Shown here piece by piece: positions 998-1,626 of a stretch of DNA of 34,430 nt; within the stretch, counting starts at the first letter, position 1; every line of letters begins with the position of its first letter. The notes beneath the pieces were generated by a model. The model worked only from the letters and a program-made list of their open reading frames with translations. It was not told where the DNA came from and made no database searches. The stretch spans positions 1 to 34,430 of the forward strand of contig JAHQWY010000003.1 of assembly GCA_029856445.1 (NCBI GenBank), written 5' to 3'. The position numbers and the translations under genes were made by a program. Source of the stretch: Promethearchaeia archaeon. Its GTDB lineage: Archaea > Asgardarchaeota > Lokiarchaeia > Sigyniarchaeales > SOKP01.

Positions 998-1305
998 TTT
1001 AGTTAATCACAGAAATATCACGTCATAAAGAATTAGCTTATTGATAAATAATAAAAATTTAGCCTTAAATATTTTTTTGAAAGTATTCGCATTGAAAAAA
1101 TCCAAAATAAAATTACATAAGATTGATCTAAAAAAAAACCTAATTTTTTAATGGTTTGAAGATTATAAATGAATTTACAGACACTGTTTTTAAATAACAT
1201 AAAGATATAAGCTAAAATAAAAAAGATTTTTATAAGATTTTGTTCTATTATTTTTTAGTACTGAATTTAATAAGTTTTAATTAAGAAAGGTTGTGATAAG
1301 AGAGT

Positions 1306-1626
1306 ATTAAAGACGACGACATTTGTCCATTATGTAGCTTTCCAAAAGAACTCTGTATTTGTGATAGTTTAAGTGCTGATGAACAACAAATAGTTATTTC
1401 TAACGATAGAAGAAAATGGGGGAGAGTTGTAACTGTAATTACTTTTGTTGGAGATTTTGATGTAAATTTAAAAAATATATTAACAAAAGCAAAAAAAAAA
1501 TGTGCTTCTGGGGGAACTGTAAGAGACAACGGTGTTGAGCTTCAAGGAGATCATCGCTTTAAAATGAAAAAATTATTAATCGATTTAGGGTTTCCTGAAG
1601 AAAATATTCTTATCCAAGGATCATAA
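1306..1626 (+). CDS. Translation initiation factor aIF1 (SUI1/eIF1 family), apparent ATT start; absent from the ORF track
   Basis: Manual translation: (I/M)KDDDICPLCSFPKELCICDSLSADEQQIVISNDRRKWGRVVTVITFVGDFDVNLKNILTKAKKKCASGGTVRDNGVELQGDHRFKMKKLLIDLGFPEENILIQGS*. CASGGTV...GVELQGDHR is the SUI1 signature. Confidence 0.93.
   Translation: MKDDDICPLCSFPKELCICDSLSADEQQIVISNDRRKWGRVVTVITFVGDFDVNLKNILTKAKKKCASGGTVRDNGVELQGDHRFKMKKLLIDLGFPEENILIQGS

Follow-up and report, generated by a model that had tools for sequence, protein, structure and literature searches.

Predicted non-AUG start codons and a possible self-limiting loop for the initiation factor aIF1 in Asgard archaea

The initiation factors eIF1 of eukaryotes and aIF1 of archaea are homologous. 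In bacteria, the infC gene starts at ATT or ATC and its product, IF3, is autoregulated (PMC5472188). The eukaryotic factor eIF1 is subject to feedback through a poor context of its AUG (PMC6237735, citing Ivanov 2010). The resemblance between IF3 and aIF1 has been judged to be convergent and not homologous (PMC6412873). It has also been recognized that in S. solfataricus and P. abyssi aIF1 promotes the rejection of non-AUG and otherwise wrong complexes (PMC6237735; PMC7531240; PMC8211752). A full-text literature search, mostly outside subscription papers, found no report of non-AUG starts or autoregulation of archaeal aIF1. Here, analysis of a DNA stretch of 34,430 nucleotides from a Lokiarchaeon (the window), together with its relatives, suggests that Lokiarchaea, like many further Asgard archaea, start the gene of this fidelity factor at AUU, AUC, AUA or CUG, and that the factor may be held in a feedback loop like those of its bacterial and eukaryotic equivalents.

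The aIF1 gene and its start codon

The gene in the window is an ordinary aIF1 gene of a Lokiarchaeon, and its frame is described by the following features.

1306..1626, + strand: aIF1 (SUI1) coding sequence, 106 amino acids, stop codon TAA at 1624-1626, identified by Pfam, NCBIfam and PDB matches and by third-position differences
1294..1299, + strand: in-frame stops TGA and TAA that close the upstream side, identified by reading of the frame
1306..1308, + strand: inferred AUU start codon, from comparison within the family

The product belongs to the SUI1 family by its score against PF01253 (SUI1 domain; 63.7 bits, cut-off 25.5) and to aIF1 by its score against NCBIfam NF002096 (112.7 bits, cut-off 98). 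Its top relative in the PDB is the aIF1 structure 4mo0 (E 1.7e-25), the alignment beginning at residue 5 of the ATT-started protein, and it carries the N-terminal zinc knuckle CPxC...CxC of that solved archaeal aIF1. A profile search finds SUI1 as a single copy in the source assembly (E 7e-17). Some genomes of family f1 carry second SUI1 copies (L031, L036, L037, L042 and L043), which show GAGGTGA or a near variant, about 8 nt and then ATT or ATA; the in-frame GTG that an annotator would pick in these copies lies inside the Shine-Dalgarno (SD) element.

Inspection of the reading frame gives AGG TTG TGA (1294) TAA (1297) GAG AGT ATT (1306) AAA GAC GAC GAC ATT TGT. The sequence-only reading had claimed that the SUI1 frame is bounded by these two stops and contains no ATG, GTG or TTG until about 1564; this is confirmed, since the earliest such codon after the stops is ATG at 1564-1566, which is codon 87 counted from ATT.

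Our comparison set consists of 43 comparable aIF1 orthologues from the same GTDB family. That reading had also proposed that close relatives should be inspected for a conserved ATT or for an ordinary ATG at this position, and the alignments favour the former: the codon is ATT in 42 of the 43 orthologues and ATC in the remaining one, ATG occurs at the start position in none of them, and a GTG lies nearby in only a few members. Codon entropy at the start is 0.16 bit, as against 0.63-1.46 bit at the remaining conserved Ile positions of aIF1, whose codons vary freely. Surveys of relatives, order, class and phylum show a layout shared by nearly every family member, namely AAGGTTGTGA, nine bases, ATT and AAAGACGAC, and the start follows the G of GTGA by 13 nt in 43/43. 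Substitutions in codons 2-87 are strongly three-periodic, with 34018, 11391 and 5868 at the third, first and second positions, respectively, and no such periodicity was found in the 18 nt upstream of ATT (1071/1134/1123). By comparison, then, aIF1 in this family has a conserved start other than ATG, GTG or TTG, following the logic of infC. Conservation among Lokiarchaea, the placement of the SD element, the onset of periodicity and the occurrence of ATC, ATA or CTG in other Asgard lineages all support initiation at 1306, and AUU is very probably the true start of the gene.

An assembly error is ruled out, because dozens of independently assembled Lokiarchaeal genomes have the same layout. Recoding of a stop codon is ruled out as well: the nearest upstream in-frame stop is TGA in 29, TAA in 12 and TAG in 2 of the 43 orthologues, so that no single stop can have been recoded. 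A SUI1 match is absent from the assemblies of G002 and G015, both of the same genus and 94-97% complete, which reflects either an assembly gap or a loss.

The codons that follow the start have a usage of their own. Rare GAC codons (AAAGACGACGA) are kept at aIF1 codons 2-5 (window 1310-1319) in most of the family and are replaced by GAAGAAGAC in one clade, while in the relative G016 GAT is eight times commoner than GAC among Asp codons.

Leader, ribosome placement and the overlapping GTG frame

Three further features lie upstream of or across the start.

1227..1236, + strand: TATA-like promoter element TTTTTATAAG, in a block conserved in same-genus genomes, transcript start expected near 1257
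1287..1297, + strand: SD-like element AAGGTTGTGAT, identified by duplex energy and by GTGA at -13 in all orthologues of the family
1293..1310, + strand: overlapping minicistron GTG ATA AGA GAG TAT TAA in the GTG frame, judged incidental

The block GATTTTTATAAGATTTT-TTCTATTATTTTTTA is strongly conserved among 14 same-genus genomes, and the usual archaeal TATA spacing places the transcript start near 1257. The conserved TATA-like block thus points to a short aIF1 leader, probably of some 50 nt, and this would leave AUU as the sole near-cognate codon of the open stretch 1300-1308. A conserved RNA hairpin around the start was sought with RNAalifold in 35 aligned leaders, and no structure was found. 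A possible pairing of GUUGU with ACGAC around the start was rejected because a large clade has GAAGAA in place of GACGAC.

The 3' end of 16S rRNA in the relative G016 is GGAUCACCUCCU, with a canonical anti-SD sequence. The duplex between the aIF1 leader and the anti-SD has an energy of -10.0 kcal/mol. For the ATG genes of two Lokiarchaeal genomes the median is -3.1, and only 6% of them reach -8.6 or lower. The weak median agrees with the report that SDs are rare in a Lokiarchaeote (PMC7531240), and the difference indicates that the poor codon of aIF1 is accompanied by an SD of unusual strength. In some members of the family (g3, g4) the SD is weak, and the 9 nt between GTGA and AUU exceed the 4 nt seen most often where GGTGA precedes ATG. 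Near-cognate codons did not stand out when codons were ranked by SD energy alone, as the set AAT/TAT/AAA/GAA gave the same median, and this ranking was not used as evidence for the codon.

The GTG within this element opens a frame that could be read in two other ways. In the first, translation would start at GUG 1293 and undergo a prfB-like programmed +1 frameshift at UAU UAA A into the SUI1 frame (MIREY-KDDD...), a reading that draws on the presence of GTG 13 nt before ATT in 43/43 orthologues, on the TAA that the GTG frame meets at start+2 in 39/43, and on the discussion of S. solfataricus aIF1 as a frameshift candidate (PMC8211752). However, the combination expected of a prfB-like gene, an upstream start, a shift site in frame and a stop, all of them conserved, is not found: the frame ends at -7 or -4, ahead of any shift site, in three of the 43 orthologues, and in one more (G022) it runs past the site to a stop at +29. 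No GTG occurs in that frame in f7, f9, f10 and most f24 genes, no SD stands at the usual spacing upstream of the GTG, and the conserved GTGA is accounted for as the SD. We therefore regard such a frameshift as highly improbable.

In the second reading, the GUG minicistron would be translated up to the UAA that overlaps AUU, and ribosomes would restart at AUU. The overlap of stop and start by one base (AUUAA) in 39 of the 43 orthologues would fit this arrangement, but the stop arises because codon 2 is AAA (Lys), 4/43 orthologues have it at another position, and the GTG sits within the SD element itself. Moreover, neither the stop nor the minicistron is present in the non-AUG Asgard lineages outside the family. 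Termination-reinitiation is thus just as implausible as the frameshift, and direct initiation at AUU is the preferred reading of the start region.

Near-cognate starts in the Asgard phylum and genome-wide

Of the 139 aIF1 genes compared across the Asgard phylum, 64 lack ATG, GTG and TTG throughout the stretch from the in-frame stop to the zinc knuckle. These include 47 of 57 genes in f1, both members of g11 in f2, those of f6, f7, f9, f10 and f25, one in f14 and seven in f24. Their near-cognate codons are ATT (45), ATC (1), ATA (10) and CTG (8), all located 3-10 codons before the first Cys and in most cases preceded by an SD. The CTG of f24 occupies precisely the position of the GTG start in sister species; in genus g7 a GTG lies inside the SD-like stretch in most species, and G041, which has no GTG, keeps ATA. 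Several Asgard families (f4, f15-f22) start aIF1 at ATG, so the non-AUG trait is not obligatory. The ATG-started aIF1 of other archaea belongs to the same protein family, with the SUI1 fold and usually the same zinc knuckle, but differs in that the canonical start is missing in none of the 70 genomes sampled, most starts being ATG. The partner factor aIF1A, used as a control in the same family and order, has a canonical start in 30/30 genes.

Genes other than aIF1 also seem to use non-AUG starts. A strict scan for coding-like ORFs that have an SD and no canonical start nearby returned 7 of 713 ORFs in G016 and G004, aIF1 included, with ATT or ATA in place in six, and 2 of 193 in a methanogen-like control archaeon. 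The proportion is about 1% in the two Lokiarchaeal genomes and in the control, which does not support a generally raised use of non-AUG starts in Lokiarchaea. Related SAP-domain-like proteins of G004 and G016 (L268:1852-2856 and L247:6524-7534, both + strand), with an apparent ATT start behind the SD-like GAGGTGGTGA or GAGGTAGGTA, may represent another case of a conserved AUU start. Five Lokiarchaeal genes have an SD and ATA at the usual spacing and no canonical start near the 5' end (L265:15700, L132:16707 and L135:11491 on the + strand, L129 19169 and L266 2559 on the - strand), and they include ThiF/MoeB-like, small GTPase, hydrolase and peptidase-like proteins. Two genes of the control archaeon (L355 2630, - strand; L349:6535, + strand) have an apparent ATA or ATT start behind a strong SD.

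Because about 1% of genes have the same apparent layout, a weak start need not imply feedback. The main rival explanation is accordingly that AUU is the true start and merely keeps expression low, without feedback from aIF1, as in other low-expression genes with poor starts; the GTPase, hydrolase and SAP-domain-like genes of the scan, with their similar frequency in the control, speak for it. This reading gives no account of why aIF1, the discriminating factor itself, is where non-AUG codons recur from one Asgard family to the next, the state having changed at least 13 times, or of why the start of its partner aIF1A is always canonical. The figure comes from a tree of 105 Asgard aIF1 proteins with 13 switches between canonical and non-canonical starts, a tree that is short and poorly resolved and in which gains and losses are inseparable. 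It is family-wide conservation and phylum-wide recurrence that set aIF1 apart, and we consider low expression without feedback unlikely.

A possible self-limiting loop and its known counterparts

The best explanation, and in our judgement a likely one, is an AUU start combined with self-limiting feedback, the start being drawn from comparison and the loop from what aIF1 is known to do. The aIF1 gene would be transcribed from its own promoter with the short leader, and AAGGTTGTGAT would place the ribosome so that translation begins at AUU 1306-1308, which the initiator tRNA would read with a third-position mismatch. Since aIF1 is expected to destabilise complexes on non-AUG codons, an activity described for S. 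solfataricus (PMC6237735; PMC8211752) and not for the Lokiarchaeal protein, an AUU-started aIF1 may limit its own synthesis: at high levels its own AUU would be rejected, at low levels allowed, and the negative feedback would close and keep aIF1 near a fixed level. Much of the Asgard phylum may retain this logic, with AUU, AUC, AUA or CUG as the start. A further speculation, which we consider doubtful, is that the ancestral Asgard aIF1 was already non-AUG-started and self-regulated, that the poor-context feedback of eIF1 is its descendant, and that living Asgard aIF1 also tunes a small regulon of AUA, AUU and CUG genes.

In many Asgard genomes aIF1 is likely to be overlooked or cut short by gene finders limited to ATG, GTG and TTG, and the aIF1 start offers a simple sequence handle for testing how stringently the closest archaeal relatives of eukaryotes select start codons. 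Should the feedback exist, a poor start would make the fidelity factor self-limiting in each of the three domains: bacterial IF3, eukaryotic eIF1 and Asgard aIF1. The proposal that this is a third, parallel case holds in part: IF3 is only an analogue, whereas eIF1 is homologous to aIF1, which means that the eukaryotic case and the archaeal one may not have arisen independently.

Like infC, Asgard aIF1 appears to place a fidelity factor behind the start codon that it discriminates against, a near-cognate AUU or AUC of the kind that gene finders misannotate (PMC5472188). It differs from infC in that the factors are not homologous (PMC6412873), that the feedback of infC is proven and that of Asgard aIF1 inferred, and that the Asgard set adds AUA and CUG behind archaeal leaders. 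With eIF1, aIF1 shares homology and would also share the logic of a weak start on a fidelity factor (PMC6237735). However, eIF1 keeps AUG and weakens its context, whereas Asgard aIF1 appears to change the codon itself, with the SD positioning the ribosome.
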